In this document: positions 1 to 10,620 of the stretch, one piece after another | How the letters are laid out: each line of letters opens with the position of its first letter | Position numbering within the stretch: position 1 is the first letter of the stretch | IMG/VR virus record: IMGVR_UViG_3300029952_000118 | Location: 1-25,241 of that record | Strand: one strand, 5' to 3' | DNA from: a virus | Length of the DNA: 25,241 nt | Made by a program: the position numbers and the translations under genes | The notes under the pieces: generated by a model | Databases searched by the model: none | What the model was told of the DNA's origin: nothing | Seen by the model: only the letters and a program-made list of their open reading frames with translations

Positions 1-58
1 AGACCTGGTAGATCAGGAGTAACAATATTTTTTAATCCAAAACTAAAACGTAACCAAA

Positions 59-466
59 ATGAAACAATTTTTAACAAGCTATGTAGCGGCCTGCGAGTAC
101 CTGAAGCGTGACACAAAATACCCTGATGTACCGCAGTACTCCGCGAAAAAACAACAGCGCCTGAATGCTGATCATGAGCTTGAGACCTTACTTGAAGCAA
201 ATAACATGATCGCAAACGATGGGAAATTGTGGGAAGCTGATCTGGCAGATACTACTCAGGAAAAATGGTATCCGTGGTTTGATATAGAACCCGTTACCGA
301 CCAAGCTCCTGAAGAAGGTCCTGCGGGTTTCCGCCTGTCGTTCTTCGGCTGCATCTGCGACGACTCGGCTGCGATTGTCGGTGCCCGCCACGCGTGCAAA
401 AACAGGGAGGTAGCAACGTTTATGGGTAAGAGTTGCCCAACGCTATATAAGCTGACGCTGGGTTAA
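59..466 (+). CDS. DGR target (variable) protein, small, no export signal
   Basis: A 135-aa protein whose C-terminal part is diversified by the retroelement next to it. The VR covers about residues 87-110, and the adenine-mutated codons fall at residues 96-110 (FFGCICDDSAAIVGAR). Before the VR is an aromatic patch (EKWYPWFDIEP, residues 68-78). After it comes a tail of about 25 residues (NREVATFMGK..LYKLTLG). From memory, this resembles small Bacteroidota phage/ICE proteins with a YYPWF patch, a hypervariable stretch, then VGSRLCFK-type and YAGKQF..LYK motifs. The aromatic patch plus FRLS next to the VR is compatible with a C-type-lectin-like DGR fold, which is inference. There is no signal peptide or membrane helix. 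The ATG is preceded by an AT-rich leader with no Shine-Dalgarno site. The gene ends 30 bp before the TR. Its biological ligand is unknown. Confidence 0.85.
   Translation: MKQFLTSYVAACEYLKRDTKYPDVPQYSAKKQQRLNADHELETLLEANNMIANDGKLWEADLADTTQEKWYPWFDIEPVTDQAPEEGPAGFRLSFFGCICDDSAAIVGARHACKNREVATFMGKSCPTLYKLTLG
318..388 (+). repeat. DGR variable repeat (VR)
   Basis: This 71-bp segment of the target gene aligns without gaps to the TR at 496-566 (offset 178). The first 26 bases are identical. From 344 on there are 12 substitutions, at 344, 345, 348, 354, 357, 362, 368, 369, 375, 377, 380 and 387. Every one lies opposite an adenine in the TR: seven A to G, four A to T and one A to C. No T, G or C of the TR has changed. 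Identity ends just after GCCC(A/G)C. Further 3' only a degenerate coding resemblance remains (VR RHAC against TR HIC). Confidence 0.95.
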
Positions 467-495
467 AATAATGGGTTGTGCGCCACTATAGCTGA

Positions 496-566
496 GTCCT
501 GCGGGTTTCCGCCTGTCGTTCAACGACTGCAACTACGACAACTCGAATGCGAATATCAGTGCCCAC
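496..566 (+). repeat. DGR template repeat (TR), probable template RNA region
   Basis: This is the invariant donor copy for the VR. Read in VR frame it encodes AGFRLSFNDCNYDNSNANIS then AHIC and a TAA at 573-575. It is preceded by an in-frame TAG at 489-491, so it is not translated as a protein. The first 25 bases after the leading G (497-521) contain no adenine. The next 45 (522-566) contain 16 adenines in 11 codons, concentrated in AAC/AAT codons, which is the usual TR design for maximal amino-acid diversity. Twelve of the 16 adenines differ in the VR; those at 531, 538, 541 and 552 are unchanged. The template RNA presumably continues into the spacer before the RT gene. Confidence 0.95.
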
Positions 567-596: not shown

Positions 597-611
597 TTGC
601 CAACATGGCAA
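597..611 (+). other. Small hairpin in the TR-RT spacer
   Basis: TTGCCA and TGGCAA form a perfect 6-bp stem with a 3-nt loop. It lies 30 nt after the TR and 65 nt before the RT start codon. In studied DGRs the RNA 3' of the TR is structured and needed for cDNA priming. This stem could be part of such a structure, but it is short and could occur by chance. Confidence 0.3.
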
Positions 612-675
612 AAAATAACAAGTGAAAACGGGGCTTTGGTAGCGAAAGCGAAGAAGACCTGAAGCACAAAGGCTC

Positions 676-1692
676 ATGAAAAGAATAGCGAATATATATC
701 AGAACATATGCAGTATTGCAAACCTGGAACTGGCAGACGATAAAGCCAGGAAGGGAAAGGAGCAATGTGGCATACGTAAACATGACCAGAAACGCGATGC
801 GAACCTTGCAGCGCTCCGGGCGATGTTGCTGAATAAAACCTATAAGGCAGGCGGTTATGATGTGTTTAAAATACATGAGCCAAAGGAGCGCGAGGTATAC
901 AGATCGGATTATTATCCACACAGGATATTGCACCATGCGATATTGAATTACCTGGAGCCGGTGTTTACATCCGTTTTTACAGCTGATACTTATAGCTGCA
1001 TAAAGGGAAAAGGCATACACGGGGCTTTCTATGCGGTAAAACGGGCATTTAAGGACGTGCCAGGCACAACGTATTGCCTGAAGATGGATGTGCGGAAATT
1101 CTACCCTAATGTAGACCATGATATACTTATGGAGCTGCTGCGAAGGAAGTTTAAGGATAATGATCTTTTGTGGCTGCTGGAGGAGATCATACGGAGCGCA
1201 CCGGGCTTGCCCATCGGCAACTATCTGAGCCAGGGACTGGCTAATTATTACCTGGCAGGGTTTGATCACTGGATCAAAGAGGTGAAGGGCGTAAAATACT
1301 ACTTCAGGTATGCGGATGACCTTGTGATCCTGGCACCGGATAAACCTACGCTGCACCAACTACTGGCAGATATAAGAGAGTATTTGGCTAGGAAGCTGAA
1401 GCTGGAGGTAAAGGGTAACTACCAGGTATTCCCGGTAGATAAGCGTGGAGTGGACTTTGTGGGGTATGTGTTTTATCATACGCACATTCTGGTGCGTAAG
1501 CGGATCAAGAAAAACTTTGCCAGGAAACTGAAGAAAAGTAAAGACCCGGCAATGATCGCCTCTTATAACGGCTTTTTGAAGCATGGGAATTGCAGACACC
1601 TAAAAAAGAAACTATTACATGAAGCGATTCAGCGACCTGAACATAACGATAGCAGACGGGCCATTCACGGGGAAGAAAAAGGAAATGGATGA
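676..1692 (+). CDS. DGR-type reverse transcriptase
   Basis: A 338-aa RNA-directed DNA polymerase, the error-prone enzyme that copies the TR into mutated cDNA for VR replacement. Visible RT blocks, in order: VYRSDYYPHRILHHAI (about 75-90); motif A DVRKFYPNVDH with the first catalytic Asp at 138; the B-region GLPIGNYLSQ at 177-186, where the xIGxxxSQ form is typical of DGR RTs rather than the QGxxxSP of group II introns; motif C RYADD at 211-215 with the catalytic Asp pair; and the D/E region to about 280 (DFVGYVF, then RKRIKK). No maturase, endonuclease or Avd domain is fused. The ATG is 110 bp after the TR. The last 24 codons (from 1619) are shared out of frame with the next gene, and residues after about 312 look non-conserved. 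Normal length for a stand-alone DGR RT. Confidence 0.95.
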   Translation: MKRIANIYQNICSIANLELADDKARKGKEQCGIRKHDQKRDANLAALRAMLLNKTYKAGGYDVFKIHEPKEREVYRSDYYPHRILHHAILNYLEPVFTSVFTADTYSCIKGKGIHGAFYAVKRAFKDVPGTTYCLKMDVRKFYPNVDHDILMELLRRKFKDNDLLWLLEEIIRSAPGLPIGNYLSQGLANYYLAGFDHWIKEVKGVKYYFRYADDLVILAPDKPTLHQLLADIREYLARKLKLEVKGNYQVFPVDKRGVDFVGYVFYHTHILVRKRIKKNFARKLKKSKDPAMIASYNGFLKHGNCRHLKKKLLHEAIQRPEHNDSRRAIHGEEKGNG

Positions 1693-1921
1693 GTTATTTG
1701 ACGAGGAGATCGAAATACATGATTACAGGGTGGTTGATTCCAAGTTCCCGAAGCCAGGATGCGAAAAGTGCCTGCATATGCAGATAGCTATTGACGGCAA
1801 AAAATATGTTGCTTTCTGCTCATCGAAAAACCTGATCAGAAACCTAGATCAGATAGTAAAAGAGGACTTCCCGATAGTAACGACAATTAGAAAAGACGGT
1901 AAAAAATTCATATTTACATAA
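1619..1921 (+). CDS. Small conserved phage protein, possibly nucleic-acid related
   Basis: A 100-aa protein with the pattern LDGxFTGKKxxMDELFDEEIxIHDY, then CLHMQIAIDGKKYVAFCSS, and an ending FPIVTTIRKDGKKFIFT. It resembles a small, probably all-beta family often found in early regions of Bacteroidota phages near recombination or single-strand-binding genes; its function is not known to me. The start at 1619 overlaps the RT gene by 74 nt. A shorter start at 1685 (MDELF) would nearly remove the overlap and has a purine-rich upstream stretch. I prefer 1619 because the residues before MDEL look like the family N-terminus. The stop codon overlaps the ATG of the next gene by one base, so translational coupling is likely. 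Confidence 0.7.
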   Translation: MKRFSDLNITIADGPFTGKKKEMDELFDEEIEIHDYRVVDSKFPKPGCEKCLHMQIAIDGKKYVAFCSSKNLIRNLDQIVKEDFPIVTTIRKDGKKFIFT

Positions 1922-4390: not shown

Positions 4391-4415
4391 AGCCCCCAAA
4401 TTGGGGGCTTTTTTT
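4391..4415 (+). terminator. Rho-independent terminator
   Basis: AGCCCCC (4391-4397) pairs with GGGGGCT (4403-4409) around a 5-nt AAATT loop, and seven T follow immediately (4409-4415). It ends the rightward early operon. The leftward head operon stops at 4414-4416, so the two convergent operons meet exactly here. On the - strand the stem is not followed by a T tract. Confidence 0.9.
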
Positions 4416-4992
4416 ATGTTGGTGTATTAAGGGTGCCTGTGATGATGGGAGTGGCCGGAGCATATAATACGGGGATATTTGCGGAGAAATCAGTGAAGGA
4501 GTGTGAGAACATGAGCTCACGGGTTTTGAGGCCCGGGCGGCGGTTGTCTGTGGCGTAGTTGATGCGGTGCATGGGCTGAGCCAATTGCTTTACGCTGTTG
4601 TCTTCATTAAATGCGACCGGAGGTACCCATCCTTCCAGGAGCTGGTATATCTGGTATTCCAATTCCAATATTTTAAGGGCTGCCTGCGAGTAGGTGCCAG
4701 GCGTAAGGTTGCTTGTTTCTTCGTAGGGATCGGTGGCGAGCTTGAGGAGTATATTGCCGGTGGCCCGTTGGTTACCCTGTGTGAGCTGCTCGAACTTCCA
4801 GTTTGGAAAATCTATGAATACGCAGGGAAATATAACCCAGGGACGTTCCGGCTGATCAAGCTGGCCGTAATCCATGTCGATAAACTTAATGACGTTGTAG
4901 ACAGTTTCATCTGGAGCGGTAGCAGTGATGGTTAGCAGCTTTTGCATTATCTGGAAATAGATGTTTCCGAATGGGGAGTTCATTATGTTCAT
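4414..4992 (-). CDS. Probable tail-completion/terminator-like phage protein
   Basis: A 192-aa protein, last gene of the leftward packaging/head operon. It begins with a helical stretch (IYFQIMQKLL), then VIKFIDMDYGQLDQ. A beta-rich body follows (PWVIFPCVFIDFPNWKFEQL, then NILLKLATDPYEE), and the end is an apparently flexible APATPIITGTLNTPT. Size, position beside the gpG-like gene and the IxLxL strand pattern fit the small tail-terminator/joining proteins encoded there in Mu-like phages. I do not recognise a named family with certainty. It overlaps the gpG-like gene by 4 nt (ATGA type). Confidence 0.55.
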   Translation of the reverse strand: MNIMNSPFGNIYFQIMQKLLTITATAPDETVYNVIKFIDMDYGQLDQPERPWVIFPCVFIDFPNWKFEQLTQGNQRATGNILLKLATDPYEETSNLTPGTYSQAALKILELEYQIYQLLEGWVPPVAFNEDNSVKQLAQPMHRINYATDNRRPGLKTRELMFSHSFTDFSANIPVLYAPATPIITGTLNTPT

Positions 4993-5546
4993 GATACAAT
5001 GATTTTAAATAAGAGTGGCACTTCTTTTTTGAACATGGCTTTGATCTGCTGATCCAGTACCGGTGACCGCCCCATAAACTGGCGCTTTGGCATTTGTGTG
5101 CTGTGAGCACCGATGGTGGCGCGGCGAATGGTGCTAATACCCCGCTGCTGATTAATGGTACGGACTTTTCCGAGGTGTAATTTTCCTGCCCTGTCTTTTG
5201 CGAAATTCAATATTGTATCGCGCATGGGGTGCGGGATCATGCCGCCTTCGTTGTGAATTTTGGAATAAGGCAGGCTGGAGGTTATGATGGCTTTCTCAGC
5301 ATCTGAATAGGATTTGAAAGGTGACCGGCGCAGGGCGGTGCTTTTCATGAGTATGGGCCGCGATTGATCTTTTTTGTCTGCTCTTTTTTGCCAGGGTTCG
5401 AAGGTTGCGCCCTGGAAGCCGCCTTTCTGGAAGTTCTGGTCTATAAATACCAATGCGGTGGCCGCCATCTTGTTTACCAGGACAGGACGTTGCGCCTTGA
5501 TGCGATCAAGGATGTTTTTTAGTGGTATTTGTAGCGGGTCCTGCAT
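4989..5546 (-). CDS. Virion morphogenesis protein (Mu gpG / P2 gpS-like)
   Basis: A 185-aa protein with the classical order of this head-tail completion family: FxxGGFxGxxFEPWQKR (about 38-52), ILMKSTALRRS, AIITSSLPYSKIHNEGG (about 85-101), and near the end MPKRQFMGRSPVLDQQI. The IHNEGG and P-x-R-x-FMG elements are the most diagnostic. In Mu and P2 such proteins help close or join the head and tail. The start codon follows the stop of the gpF-like gene with no gap, and the 3' end overlaps the next gene by 4 nt. Confidence 0.8.
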   Translation of the reverse strand: MQDPLQIPLKNILDRIKAQRPVLVNKMAATALVFIDQNFQKGGFQGATFEPWQKRADKKDQSRPILMKSTALRRSPFKSYSDAEKAIITSSLPYSKIHNEGGMIPHPMRDTILNFAKDRAGKLHLGKVRTINQQRGISTIRRATIGAHSTQMPKRQFMGRSPVLDQQIKAMFKKEVPLLFKIIVS

Positions 5547-6335
5547 TTATGATCTTTTGGGCAGGTTTTCTTTTGCCCAGGTGTTAAGAGATTTCTTTGG
5601 TACTCCGGTATAGTAGGGGTGATCGGGAGGCAATGCCTGAGATTTGCGGGCATAGTTGGTGCGGAACATGGCAGGGATGAGTTCGGGATCAGGAAGGGTT
5701 TCATCAGGGGTTTGGATATAGGTGCTGTTGGGTAGCTGCAGTATAGTGCAGTAGCAATTAAAATGCAGTAACGGACTGGCGTATTCCCACACCGGATCAT
5801 TGATGGGCCTGATCATATCATCATAAGGGGCGCATATAGGACAAACGTGCTCCCCTTTTGAGGTTTTAAACTGCAGGTAAGGCATTGTATCTGCACTCTC
5901 CTGGAAGCGGCCCCATTTGGCAGACATTTGCGAAGCTGCTACAGCTGCATTATATTCTACTTTGCCATAGGTATCTACATACACTCCGAGCTTCTGCCTG
6001 GCTGCAGTCTCAAATTGGGAAAAGGACGGGGAGGATTCGACTCCGCTCACCATGACAGGCTTAAGCAGCTCAGAGAGCGCCTGGTTGATCTGGTAGCTTT
6101 TTGCGGCGCTGAACTGGTATACTGATTTCTCCAGGGCTTCAAACATTTTGGCATCCGGAGTTGTATAATCGTAACCCTCCGTGCCGGGAAGCGTGACTTC
6201 TTCTGTGGTAAGCCCTTCTTTTATGGCTTTGGTGAAGTTCTCTGCCATGTGAAGCGCTGTGGGATCATCTATGTCGCCTGGCTTTATATCACCTTCAAAT
6301 ACCTTTTGAATGAGGTTTAAAAACGGCTCCGGCAA
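5547..6335 (-). CDS. Phage head morphogenesis protein, Mu gpF-like (start uncertain)
   Basis: A minor head protein of the gpF/SPP1 gp7 superfamily. The C-terminal half shows EYNAAVAASQMSAKW, YLQFKTSKGEHVCPICAPYDD and LLHFNCYCTILQL. Together these give the CxxC...HxxCxC metal-binding-like signature of the family. A helical N-terminal half precedes it. The drawn start at 6335 is a TTG. The same frame stays open to 6458 (stop at 6459-6461) and encodes a plausible family N-terminus (HLRAKIKILYGHVHQLEDD) without any ATG, GTG or TTG. The real start is therefore unresolved and may be a rare codon (ATT at 6405-6407 or ATA at 6399-6401), or a mutation has removed it. It lies between the portal and gpG-like genes, as in Mu. 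Confidence 0.8.
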   Translation of the reverse strand: MPEPFLNLIQKVFEGDIKPGDIDDPTALHMAENFTKAIKEGLTTEEVTLPGTEGYDYTTPDAKMFEALEKSVYQFSAAKSYQINQALSELLKPVMVSGVESSPSFSQFETAARQKLGVYVDTYGKVEYNAAVAASQMSAKWGRFQESADTMPYLQFKTSKGEHVCPICAPYDDMIRPINDPVWEYASPLLHFNCYCTILQLPNSTYIQTPDETLPDPELIPAMFRTNYARKSQALPPDHPYYTGVPKKSLNTWAKENLPKRS

Positions 6336-6433
6336 TTCTGCAGGTGCATCATTATCCTGGTCATGATCATCTTCGAGCTGATGAACATGGCCGTAGAGTA
6401 TTTTAATTTTTGCCCGGAGGTGTGCAGCCGGGC

Positions 6434-7891
6434 TTAGGCGAAAAAATCTTTTAACTTTTTATCGAGTATGGCAGATATGGCTTCCCCAAAATCATTATAA
6501 TTTGGTCTGCGCATTCTTTGCTCTCCAATAGATTTCAGTAAAGCAACTTCATCATCCGATAAATTAATTCCGTCCTGACCTTTGGGGTTTGCCGGAGCCG
6601 GTGCTTTAAGGACTTCATCTGTCGGGGATGGTTCAGGGATATTATATGTGTCATAAAAATAGTCCGTAGATATACGTAAACCAGCGGCGGATAGGGCGGT
6701 GTCGATTTCTATTTTAGCAATCGCATAATCAATATCAATTTCCGATTTGATATTAAATCGGCCACCTTCCACAACTGGCAGGCCATATGAGGCTAATATT
6801 TTTATAAAGTGTGGGTCGTTGAGATGCGCCTCAAGATAACGGAGATCGGCTTTAAGGAGTTCTTTTTGTTGAGCAGAATGTGTTTTGCTTTTTGAGCCGG
6901 TGCCTGTGGATGAATTGGTGGTAGTTTCGGTATTTCCCAATATGATAATGGATAAGTTCTGATCCATTGCCTTTACAAAAGTATCCTGGAGGCCCCCGGT
7001 GGCGTTGGCCGTCTTGCCATCAATGATTTCTACCTCCGCTGTGTTGGGTATCAATATAGCAGTGACATTGCCATCCTGATCAACCATTTTAGTGAGCCTT
7101 GCTTCCGAGTCTGGGTCGTTTGGGTCGTATTTAATGACGCGGATAGGCATGCCGAATATCTCAATGAAGTTTGCCCAGTCGGCGATGGCTTCACGTTTAT
7201 ATATAAGGTACTGGCAGCACTGGTTCAGGTAGCCAAGGTCTTCCGGCTCTCCGACAATCCACACATTGTCGAGCTTAGTATAGTCAAAACCTTCGGACTG
7301 ATCATTTTGCTCTATGCTGATGATTTGCGTTTTAGGCTTAATGTGTTTTCGGGGTATCACGCGAAAGTTTACTTTAAGCCCAGGAAGAAATTCAAAACCG
7401 GATATACCCCATTCCTGGGCTTCCATTATGGTGCGCTTAAGTATGTTACACTCATTACTACCAAGGAATTCCTGCATATCTTCTACTTCCTGTCCGTCTG
7501 GTCCCAAGTAATCAATCATCTGGTTTATTACAGATAATATGCGTTTGTTTTTAACGCCGGTGTAATGGCCATCGAGTGAGAGATGGGTGTATATGTCATA
7601 TAGGCGTGTACGGTTAGGCCAAGGGCGCATTTCTGCCGCCCTGAGGGCTTCGAGGTAGTTGTTGATACCTATTTGTGTGCGTATAGGGCTACGGACATAG
7701 ATATCATTCAGGATGACTTCTACGTTGCCGCCAACTATAGGCTCATTTTTATAGACAGTAGAGTTGTTATGACCGAAGGGCTGATTAACGAGAACGTCTT
7801 TAGACTCGGTAATGGCAAGGCCGGCAGGTTTTGCTGCTGCATTTTTTTTATAGGTCTTTTTCGTTTCTGGTTTTTTCTTTGCTGTAGCCAT
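6434..7891 (-). CDS. Portal protein, Mu gp29-like (DUF935)
   Basis: A 485-aa protein that forms the dodecameric DNA-entry portal at one head vertex. Diagnostic DUF935 features: a central WANFIEIFGMPIRVIKYDPND (about 238-258); then GNTETTTNSSTGTGSKSKTH, in the position of the family's low-complexity loop; KADLRYLEAHLNDPHF; and the late SYGLPVVEGGRFNIKSEID. The N-terminal 25 residues are Lys/Ala-rich and probably disordered. The length is in the usual 450-550 range. It is flanked by the DUF1320 protein (2-nt gap) and the gpF-like gene, the canonical Mu order gp36-gp29-gpF being locally rearranged. Confidence 0.9.
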   Translation of the reverse strand: MATAKKKPETKKTYKKNAAAKPAGLAITESKDVLVNQPFGHNNSTVYKNEPIVGGNVEVILNDIYVRSPIRTQIGINNYLEALRAAEMRPWPNRTRLYDIYTHLSLDGHYTGVKNKRILSVINQMIDYLGPDGQEVEDMQEFLGSNECNILKRTIMEAQEWGISGFEFLPGLKVNFRVIPRKHIKPKTQIISIEQNDQSEGFDYTKLDNVWIVGEPEDLGYLNQCCQYLIYKREAIADWANFIEIFGMPIRVIKYDPNDPDSEARLTKMVDQDGNVTAILIPNTAEVEIIDGKTANATGGLQDTFVKAMDQNLSIIILGNTETTTNSSTGTGSKSKTHSAQQKELLKADLRYLEAHLNDPHFIKILASYGLPVVEGGRFNIKSEIDIDYAIAKIEIDTALSAAGLRISTDYFYDTYNIPEPSPTDEVLKAPAPANPKGQDGINLSDDEVALLKSIGEQRMRRPNYNDFGEAISAILDKKLKDFFA

Positions 7892-7893
7892 GA

Positions 7894-8349
7894 CTAAAAA
7901 TTGTTTGAACGTTTAGGACGTGCTTTTATTTGAACCGGGTTTCCTTTGGTAGCATTCGTATTTATGGTATTCAGGTCAAGAAGTGGCCAGTTTTGGGGCA
8001 CTTGTTTGAGCTGCTGTATGCGAGTGAGGGTGTGTATAGCATCTTCCTGATTTGTGCGGATAAGAGACAGGTCAATGCCTACGTTTGCGAGTTGCACAAT
8101 ATTCCAGCAGGCAATGTGTGCACAGAGTTTATTTAAAAACTGATCTGCGGGCATTGTGGCGGCTGTATCAGCTACGGGATCACCGAACATGGCCACTATA
8201 TCAAAGCGCCCTAAGAATGTCTTTACTTCGCTTATCGCGGACGCAATTGCATCGTTGACAATGGTAGCATTACTGCGGGTTATCGCAGTGATTTTTTCAG
8301 GGTATATATAGTTTTCAAGGTCTGCGAGTGCAATTATTGGCGTGTACAT
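7894..8349 (-). CDS. DUF1320 family protein (Mu gp36-like)
   Basis: A 151-aa protein. The N-terminal YIYPEKITAITRSNATIVNDAIASAISEVKTFLGRFDIVAMFGD follows the DUF1320 pattern of a leading helix, an AIxxAxxEVxxxLxxRYD-like helix, then a mid-protein helix of the form LCAHIACWNIVQLANVGID, and later DAIHTLTRIQQ. Such proteins are predicted head-tail connector subunits in Mu-like phages. The C-terminal 35 residues (NTNATKGNPVQIKARPKRSNNF) look flexible. It is placed directly upstream of the portal in the same operon. Confidence 0.8.
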   Translation of the reverse strand: MYTPIIALADLENYIYPEKITAITRSNATIVNDAIASAISEVKTFLGRFDIVAMFGDPVADTAATMPADQFLNKLCAHIACWNIVQLANVGIDLSLIRTNQEDAIHTLTRIQQLKQVPQNWPLLDLNTINTNATKGNPVQIKARPKRSNNF

Positions 8350-8352
8350 ATT

Positions 8353-8553
8353 TTATGCGTTTGGCGTTATTGTATACACTCCTGATACATATGTCAGGGT
8401 GAGATTATTGGTGGTGCACCAGGACTGGAGGTCGGCGGCGCAGCAGAGGGGGGGCTGATTGTCGAAATCATCAACGAAGAGATCGCAGAGCTGCTGGTCT
8501 GTTACGGTTACTGTTTGCCCTTCCAGGGCTTTCCTGATATCAGCGTAGTGCAT
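8353..8553 (-). CDS. Small protein of unknown function between TerL and the gp36-like gene
   Basis: A 66-aa protein with a helical N-terminus (YADIRKALEGQTV), an acidic middle, a Cys-containing segment (PPLCCAADLQSWC, residues 34-46) and a beta-like end (LTLTYVSGVYTI). It lies 2-3 nt from both neighbours, so it is cotranslated with the packaging genes. I do not recognise a family. The position suggests a small head or connector accessory protein. Confidence 0.6.
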   Translation of the reverse strand: MHYADIRKALEGQTVTVTDQQLCDLFVDDFDNQPPLCCAADLQSWCTTNNLTLTYVSGVYTITPNA

Positions 8554-8555
8554 TA

Positions 8556-10154
8556 TTAGAATGTTTTGTTGGGGTTACGTCTATGTTTAACCATTTTGAC
8601 CATAGCAGTGGCTTTAATGGCTTCTTTGTTGTTGATCATCCATATAGCACCTTCTACCGCATCAGGACCGTCATCATGCGCACGGCCACCGGGACCGAAG
8701 GCAATAAACTGATCGTACAGGTTTTTCATGCTGATATTGGAGCGCTCATCTTCATTGAGGTATAGTTTGCCGTTCCGGTTGAGGGGTTCAAGCAGGGATT
8801 CTATACGGACGAACTTATCGGGCTTGCTACGCTGATCACCGGTGATGGGGACTGCTTTGCCCCGTTTGCGCGACTCCTTGTTAAATTCGGCATAGAAGAT
8901 ATCCTGCATAAAGACAAGCTCCATGAAGTAATAACATGCATGCTGGCCAACGAAGTCCATGATCTGATAATGCCAATCGACCATAGTAGCTGTGCCTGTC
9001 TGCTCTACAAATGCCTTGATCACATGAAATTCATCTTTCCACTTGCCGACCAGTACTGTGGCCTTAAAGTCGTTTTTCTTAGACTCCTTATACGACGGGT
9101 CCGTGTAGCATACCAATAAGGAATACTCCTTGAGTTGCCTGGCGGGCTTGTATGCCATTTCTTTAAACACGGACCCTTCGTATATTGGATTATTGTAGTA
9201 TTCTTTCTGCACTGCGAAGTAGCTCTTCTGGCTGAGCACACGGTCAATGCGCTCTTCGGAGTTCTTTTGCGGCCATGTTGATTTACCATCTTTATCACGG
9301 ATGTTTACAACATCCACATGATCAGCGAAACCGCAGGCGCGAACTACGCAGCAATCAAGAGCGATCTTGTTACCGCAAAAAATAATGGTTGTATCCTGGG
9401 ATATGGAACGGGTTGAGATCAGGGCTTCATCTAGCCATGCCCAGCGCGCTTTTATGATCTCCTGATTGCGGCAGTCCTCATCCGTATCGATATCATCTAC
9501 GAGCAGCACATCAGGTCGTATCTCTTCATTACGGGAACCGCGTGGGGATTGCCCAGCGCCGAGGGCGCGAAATGCTATGCCGCTGCGTGTGATAAATTCT
9601 TTGTCGGTCCAGTCTCCGGAGTTTTCCTGTATGCCGTAATCGTTCTTAATGCGCTCATTGGACTCCATATTTGCTTTGTATGGGAGCAAGAGGCGCTGTG
9701 CATTTTCAGAGGAGTTACTTACTAGAAGGACGTTACGTTTGCGCTGACGGACAAACGGCGGTAATTTTTGTTTTGCATCTTTAGGTATTGCTTCGTTGTG
9801 GACAAGATGGCCTACCAGTGTGATATAGAATGTGGTCATCATTGTGCGCGTGGACTTCGCAAGCTCACGGCTCCACATGATCACTTCGTACCATTCGGGG
9901 TTGTCTATTATCCGCTTTGAAGCTGCAATATGGAATGGTGCCGGTGGTATCGGTTGGCCATTGGGTTTGGATGTGTATTTCGGAAAGTAGTATTTATACC
10001 ATTCCTCCGGGTCGGCTTCGAGCCGAGATATGCGGGCACGCTTATCCTTTGAGGTCTCAGATAAATCGACGGGAGTACTGGCAGCAATATTTTTGGTATA
10101 CTGTTCCCAGGTTTCAACCTTGCGCTTATCTATGGAGGATAATGTGGTATTCAT
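8556..10154 (-). CDS. terL: Terminase large subunit (Mu gp28-like)
   Basis: A 532-aa packaging motor and nuclease. In order: a YYFPKYTS...PAPFH adenine/Q-motif-like region (56-75); a degenerate Walker A (WSRELAKSTRT, 94-104), the usual R-x-x-x-K-S/T form of TerL; Walker B VLLVDDIDTDED at 216-227; a coupling-motif-like TTIIFCGN (255-262); a C-terminal RNase H-type nuclease beginning CYTDPSYKES with Asp352, then Asp362; and a late HDDGPDAVEGA (493-503) supplying the last acidic ligand. Length and motifs are complete. It follows the small-terminase gene by one base and drives the leftward operon. Confidence 0.9.
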   Translation of the reverse strand: MNTTLSSIDKRKVETWEQYTKNIAASTPVDLSETSKDKRARISRLEADPEEWYKYYFPKYTSKPNGQPIPPAPFHIAASKRIIDNPEWYEVIMWSRELAKSTRTMMTTFYITLVGHLVHNEAIPKDAKQKLPPFVRQRKRNVLLVSNSSENAQRLLLPYKANMESNERIKNDYGIQENSGDWTDKEFITRSGIAFRALGAGQSPRGSRNEEIRPDVLLVDDIDTDEDCRNQEIIKARWAWLDEALISTRSISQDTTIIFCGNKIALDCCVVRACGFADHVDVVNIRDKDGKSTWPQKNSEERIDRVLSQKSYFAVQKEYYNNPIYEGSVFKEMAYKPARQLKEYSLLVCYTDPSYKESKKNDFKATVLVGKWKDEFHVIKAFVEQTGTATMVDWHYQIMDFVGQHACYYFMELVFMQDIFYAEFNKESRKRGKAVPITGDQRSKPDKFVRIESLLEPLNRNGKLYLNEDERSNISMKNLYDQFIAFGPGGRAHDDGPDAVEGAIWMINNKEAIKATAMVKMVKHRRNPNKTF

Positions 10155-10155
10155 A

Positions 10156-10620
10156 CTAATTTTTAATGGTGCTTAAACGGTCTTTAATAAAGCGATCGGA
10201 CCAAATGTTGATGAGCTTGGATGCTTCGAAATCTTCTTTTTGCACGAATGATATAAGAGCAGTGAGGGCGTCAATCATTTCACCTATGCCTGTACTATTC
10301 TCCAGTTTCTTAATGGAGTTGGTAAGTTTGATAATGCGGTCTGCATCCGGCATTGTATTGGGGTCATTGTCCTGCAGGGATTTAACGCCCTCCTTATTGA
10401 GGAGGTCAAGCATTTCATATAGCATGTTAAGCTGCTCCTGCTTTGTTGATAGAAGGGTTTTGCGCATGCCGTCCCATTTGCCATCATTTACCCAGTTGGA
10501 CATGGTTTTTTCCGTGACACCGACTTTCAGGGCAATGTCCTTTTGAGTGTTATTGCCGCGTATGTAGAGTTCTTTGGCCCATTCCTTTTTCTGGTGCGTG
10601 AGCAGGTCTTGTTTCGCCAT
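10156..10620 (-). CDS. Probable terminase small subunit (HTH protein)
   Basis: A 154-aa protein with an N-terminal helix-turn-helix (KEWAKELYIRGNNTQKDIAL then KVGVTEKTMSNWVNDGKWDGM, residues 11-52). A long helical, coiled-coil-prone region follows (LLSTKQEQLNMLYEMLDLLN, about 56-115) and then a short C-terminal tail. This order, with HTH then oligomerisation helices, and the position directly before terL, are those of TerS proteins. It is the first gene of the leftward operon. The leader contains a GC-rich hairpin. Confidence 0.8.
   Translation of the reverse strand: MAKQDLLTHQKKEWAKELYIRGNNTQKDIALKVGVTEKTMSNWVNDGKWDGMRKTLLSTKQEQLNMLYEMLDLLNKEGVKSLQDNDPNTMPDADRIIKLTNSIKKLENSTGIGEMIDALTALISFVQKEDFEASKLINIWSDRFIKDRLSTIKN

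Follow-up and report, generated by a model that had tools for sequence, protein, structure and literature searches.

The window analysed here (the whole stretch of viral DNA, 25,241 bp) begins in a plus-strand gene cluster that comprises the end of one and the whole of a second small target gene, a variable repeat (VR) with its template repeat (TR), a spacer with predicted hairpins, a reverse transcriptase (RT) and a small partner gene, p100. Loci with L numbers are relatives of the window gathered by their RT; of 80 RT relatives scanned, 71 yielded TR/VR pairs. The features are the following:

1 to 22, plus strand: 3' end of target gene 1 (last codons ...DLVDQE and stop), cut by the fragment start and identical to L003:7507-7528
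59 to 466, plus strand: target gene 2, 135 aa, an ORF of the small-target family (family alignment, PHROGs) that contains the VR in frame
318 to 388, plus strand: VR, encoding residues ~87-110 of target 2 in frame
379 to 388, plus strand: IMH-like 3' end of the VR, CGGTGCCCGC, with G380 and G387, both opposite A of the TR, nearly invariant among related VRs
474 to 487, plus strand: 5' arm of stem S1, GGTT-G-TGCGCCACT, with bulged G478, complementary to 584-596 (covariation)
496 to 566, plus strand: TR, non-coding, the same in the window, L003, L004 and L005
584 to 596, plus strand: 3' arm of stem S1, AGTGGCGCA-GACC, complementary to 474-487 (covariation)
598 to 610, plus strand: spacer hairpin S2, TGCCAACATGGCA, in the Rfam RT-17/RT-14 region (fold)
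630 to 659, plus strand: spacer hairpin S3, GGGGCTTTGGTAGCGAAAGCGAAGAAGACC, in the Rfam RT-17/RT-14 region (fold)
676 to 1692, plus strand: RT of a diversity-generating retroelement (DGR), 338 aa, with YADD and IGNYLSQ motifs and an intact ORF (Pfam RVT_1, 3.3e-17; phrog_1423, 1e-118)
1619 to 1921, plus strand: p100, a conserved 100-aa partner that overlaps the RT end and directly follows the RT in 37 loci

VR and TR align without gaps over 71 bp, with the similarity dropping sharply to background outside of both repeats, and all 12 mismatches are located opposite TR adenines (7 A to G, 4 A to T and 1 A to C); the re-alignment reproduced the counts of an earlier note on this DNA as well as its adenine-free TR 5' end (the first 26 bases contain no A). 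Given 16 adenines among the 71 TR bases, the chance of all 12 mismatches falling on them is 1.4e-10. Among 70 VR/TR pairs from the window and its relatives, a set that includes near-duplicate contigs, 984 of 1431 TR adenines were changed compared with 10 of 3917 other bases; the comparison of related strains that the earlier note had proposed thus likewise places the differences on adenines. Random drift or simple duplication, already dismissed in that note, is ruled out by the adenine-only mismatches in the window, between L003 and L005 (see below) and in the 70 pairs. The adenines of the TR occur in AAC, AAT, TAC, GAC and ATC codons, in which no change at A can yield a stop, and the theoretical protein repertoire derived from the TR amounts to ~3e9.

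Two of the 12 differences stand apart from the others: in related VRs, the position of VR G380 (TR A558) carries G in 59 of 61 cases and that of VR G387 (TR A565) in 60 of 60, whereas the other TR adenines are still A in 36% of related VR positions. Because of this near-invariance in about 60 VRs, both are not regarded as fresh hypermutation; they look like fixed IMH/IMH*-like differences at the end of the repeat, or like strongly selected positions. In consequence, the 12 hypermutated adenines claimed previously are reduced to ten, although all 12 do face A. The stem-loop directly 3' of the IMH that is present in BPP-1 (a non-universal element) was not seen: there was no 5-bp hairpin in the window and no 6-bp hairpin in four of five relatives. 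A search with the TR across all 25,241 bp matched only 318-386, within the VR, and the TR itself; as the fragment stops before the tail-fibre genes, this phage may have a further VR in its tail region. A second, upstream target is cut off at positions 1-22. The intact DGR of the earlier note is confirmed as regards RT, TR and VR, whereas the window lacks the first of the two targets.

The relatives L003 and L005 (99.6% identity over 5.2 kb) differ only in the VR of the upstream target, by 8 substitutions that all face TR adenines and a 9-bp in-frame deletion, and by 3 mismatches at the L005 contig tip. The VR variation is consistent with mutagenic retrohoming and bears out the earlier view of a recently active element. 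The deletion (L003:7366-7425 versus L005:3469-3538) is placed between CAAC repeats of the TR, as would be expected if the template slipped while cDNA was made, and such slippage is suggested as a further source of VR diversity beside the adenine changes. Between the window and L003, 19 sites differ, all of them in target gene 2: eight are VR positions facing TR adenines, 11 lie elsewhere in the gene, and the 3.8 kb after the gene are identical. The presence of 11 non-VR differences beside 3.8 kb without any points to recombination rather than to the DGR; most likely, the window allele of target 2 arrived by recombination and received DGR changes on top. Positions 1-878 of the window are identical to L004, with 40 mismatches thereafter. 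The recombination signal in target 2 is also what could be put forward for an only apparent hypervariability, caused by an old duplication or by recombination of alleles at a locus with a dead DGR. This explanation is extremely improbable, as all eight in-VR differences between the window and L003 and all eight L003-L005 substitutions face TR adenines, the TR is identical, the RT is intact, and no TR-derived codon can turn into a stop. The comparison of these sequences supports an active or recently active DGR in the window.

The window RT shares 30% identity with the BPP-1 bRT over 317 aa at equal protein length, and its best PDB match is 8ub7, a 328-aa reverse transcriptase (E 7e-36), with group II intron RTs ranking well behind. 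Together with the bRT-like RT, the adenine-only TR/VR pair, the in-frame VR, the non-coding TR near the RT and the IMH-like VR end constitute the hallmarks by which the cassette, judged from its sequence, is a DGR. The accessory protein Avd, which is common but not universal in DGRs, was not recognised, no ORF being present between target 2 and the RT. In the RT tree, the window is placed in a well-supported group of 30 rows with small-target cassettes only, whereas the large-target rows are positioned on other branches.

The TR is bracketed by S1, a 13-bp stem with a bulged G (474-487 with 584-596). In 35 distinct sequences, with arms selected by their pairing around anchors of GG and CC and with a linker in place of the letters between the arms, 95.6% of the cells were paired, whereas shuffles reached 71.7% and slid controls no more than 48.6%; both-sided changes occurred in 10 of the 13 pairs. 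The isolated window RNA folds no better than shuffles overall (z -0.94) and the single-sequence local-complementarity scan for S1 was too noisy to score, so that the RNA case rests on the covariation. S1 was also seen by eye in members with C-lectin targets. Spacer hairpins S2 and S3 between TR and RT are common to the window and the Rfam families RT-17 (RF03020) and RT-14 (RF02921). The RT-17 match of the window at 593-671 remained below the threshold (31.1 versus 40.4 bits, E 0.0011), while L028, L037 and L056 exceeded it; in the RT-17 model, however, the "gaCC" that forms the base of the window S1 is left unpaired, and neither RT-17 nor RT-14 includes a TR-bracketing stem. A PreQ1-III riboswitch at 760-885 was discarded, its match being far under threshold. 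For BPP-1, the spacer has been described as the recruiting site of the RT-Avd complex, and a motif located upstream of the TR as the element that stops reverse transcription (PMC12875486). We infer that S1 sets the template boundaries in the window cassette. The stem would offer a simple structural rule for template start and end, and would aid the detection of such cassettes.

The loci in which p100 follows the RT include C-lectin-target DGRs. The protein gave no Avd match in Pfam, PHROGs and NCBIfam and no PDB sequence match; a small ssDNA-binding or OB-type protein, as its appearance might suggest, was supported by no tool. The nucleotide homology of L004 and L006, otherwise different Mu-like phages, to the window (96-98%) stops exactly at the p100 stop codon (window 1921, L004:1964, L006:1142), and the genes downstream are only about 30-60% identical to those of the window as protein. 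This homology edge suggests that the cassette (at least target 2, TR, RT and p100) travels as one module and, thus, that p100 is probably an accessory protein of the cassette in place of Avd. Together with S1, p100 may show how the RT works without a recognisable Avd.

Target gene 1 is complete in L003 (133 aa, L003:7127-7528, with its own VR) and in L005 (133-136 aa in the two loci), directly upstream of target gene 2. In most of the scanned relatives, a tandem array of two small targets, or of three in some, immediately precedes TR and RT, with one TR for all; about eight relatives have large targets of 410-657 aa (L074 being uncertain). Deviating arrangements are a target and TR downstream of the RT in L059, three tandem targets (L083:7724-9173) beside a cytosine-methylase-like gene (L083:6958-7758), and a 248-aa target with ~90 additional N-terminal residues (L095:8644-9390), a possible fusion that could hint at function. 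The gene order in L003 is repressor, MuA (phrog_310, 1.3e-40), MuB (phrog_296, 1.4e-27), Gam (Pfam, 9.2e-35), target 1, target 2, TR, RT and p100, on to a GemA-like gene; downstream of the cassette, the window encodes a tail sheath as well as a Mu portal and terminase. The block for packaging and head morphogenesis (window 4414-10620: terminase, portal, MuF-like) is encoded by the minus strand, with early genes on one side and capsid/tail genes on the other, both on the plus strand; many relatives have the same arrangement. The early position of the targets is repeated in many divergent Mu-like relatives, and in five non-Mu backbones the cassette neighbours are RecT (L027, L060), primase and DNA methyltransferase (L015), an exonuclease/FtsK-like gene (L012) or an HNH protein (L022). 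An early expression time of the targets is suggested by the gene position, which is no proof of it.

The small targets from ~60 related loci comprise about 115-180 aa. Of 60 aligned members, 57 match phrog_11581, an entry without functional annotation, and 59 match no tail family in PHROGs; searches of Pfam and NCBIfam families, of PDB sequences and of PDB folds gave no match for the target, including no fibre, Ig or tail domain, and neither the window target nor a typical relative matched named phages. Structure matches were restricted to uncharacterised gut-phage proteins. In the AlphaFold (AF2) models (mean pLDDT 84.7 and 85.7), the scaffold of the targets is helical and the VR forms a loop modelled with low confidence; the VR ends at ~83% of the target length and is followed by ~24 residues. 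In an hhalign comparison, the VR segment of the small targets matched the last strand region of C-lectin targets from the same RT clade (probability 84%, E 7e-6), the match covering the VR end only; the target VR may therefore have descended from a lectin VR and be carried on a different scaffold, although the targets could also be mini-lectins. Nearly all targets lacked a clear signal or membrane segment in a hydropathy scan.

The resemblance of the VR segment to the end of C-lectin VRs, and the fact that viral DGR targets in clades 1, 4 and 6 of Roux et al. are mostly tail proteins (PMC8144416), would be in line with the small proteins being host-receptor-binding virion parts, such as a tail tip, an adhesin or a head decoration, that are encoded away from the tail operon. 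We consider such a role quite unlikely: the early-region position is repeated across unrelated backbones, the size of the targets and their missing tail, fibre or Ig domains and PDB fold matches do not agree with it, and two relatives of full-length size (38 kb) contain no VR beyond the tandem pair in the whole record, tail module included (L026 was left out of these whole-record negatives since its known VRs were missed by the search). A tail-fibre target in particular is not supported by the position, as the targets follow Gam and precede the RT within the early block.

Additional small VR-bearing genes that correspond to the same TR are located far from the RT in four relatives (L012:1405-1809, L070:2322-2705, L073:258-967, L075:619-978), those of L070, L073 and L075 just upstream of the transposase. 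The latter position near the immunity region, in combination with a temperate Mu-like backbone with repressor, could indicate that the targets are expressed from the prophage in lysogeny and act in superinfection immunity or regulation, their variability shifting specificity against competing phages. Such a role is unlikely, since most copies are found beside Gam, RecT or RT instead of the repressor and no DNA-binding domain was found in the targets. The early position, the lack of clear export signals and the presence of two paralogous targets per TR rather favor non-virion proteins inside the host cell. The most likely, though still tentative, assignment of the targets is therefore that of intracellular variable binding proteins, probably involved in phage-host or phage-phage conflict, with variable host partners (defence or take-over targets) to which they would bind.

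The following sequence of events is proposed: Transcription would yield a structured RNA that contains the TR as a loop closed by S1 and the S2/S3 hairpins as the spacer bound by the RT. The RT would copy the TR with misincorporation opposite adenines, and the cDNA would take the place of the matching VR in the adjacent target genes, with the IMH-like 3' end as the limit (by analogy with BPP-1); the downstream p100 would probably substitute for Avd as accessory factor. The targets, a tandem pair of small proteins from the early region (transposition/recombination) of a Mu-like phage of Bacteroidota, would each have a mostly helical scaffold on which about ten residues can be randomised. As a whole, this explanation (an active or recent DGR with structured RNA, early small targets acting in the cell and an accessory p100) is considered probable. 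The more general proposal, that a widespread DGR clade of Bacteroidota phages evolves tandem small intracellular early proteins of non-lectin scaffold as counter-defence or host-takeover binders, with a TR-closing stem and p100, is a speculative possibility.

The main explanation given so far for phage DGRs is a switch of tropism through tail fibres. If the proposed function is true, the recurring DGR type on small early proteins would mean that targeted hypermutation is also used by phages inside the cell; since the cassette occurs in genomes of cultivated Flavobacterium and Dysgonomonas, the binding partners of the targets are directly testable.

According to Roux et al. (2021), viral DGR targets are mostly tail proteins with C-terminal C-lectin VRs (PMC8144416), and the one non-structural C-lectin target near defence genes described by Benler et al. 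(2021) was called unprecedented there (PMC8008677). As far as these two papers go, the dedicated, tandem, small and early target class appears to be new, with an earlier cataloguing in the supplementary clusters of Roux et al. being possible. The BPP-1 DGR (mtd/avd/TR/brt) corresponds to the window in its related RT, the TR between target and RT, the A-specific changes and the fixed VR 3' end, but differs in its tail-protein target, the presence of Avd and a TR of 134 bp versus 71 bp; no comparable TR-bracketing stem was recognised in BPP-1 by the (noisy) local-complementarity scan. The Hankyphage DGR (PMC6199706) likewise resides in a Mu-like transposable Bacteroides phage and has an A-only TR/VR pair; its 117-bp repeats, one VR-bearing target (discussed as C-type lectin) and small Avd-like ORF contrast with the 71-bp repeats, two tandem small early targets and p100 without evident Avd of the window. 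The crAss-like/C-lectin-target DGRs (L067, L076-L081, L084) belong to the same RT clade, with S1 recognisable by eye in several and p100 in some, but possess a single large target (354-657 aa) with C-terminal VR. The Quimbyviridae DGR (PMC8008677) is similar in having one non-structural target, located in a defence/counter-defence island; this target, however, has a C-lectin domain, and a second target of that DGR is encoded near the tail, whereas in the window the whole cassette serves small early-region proteins.
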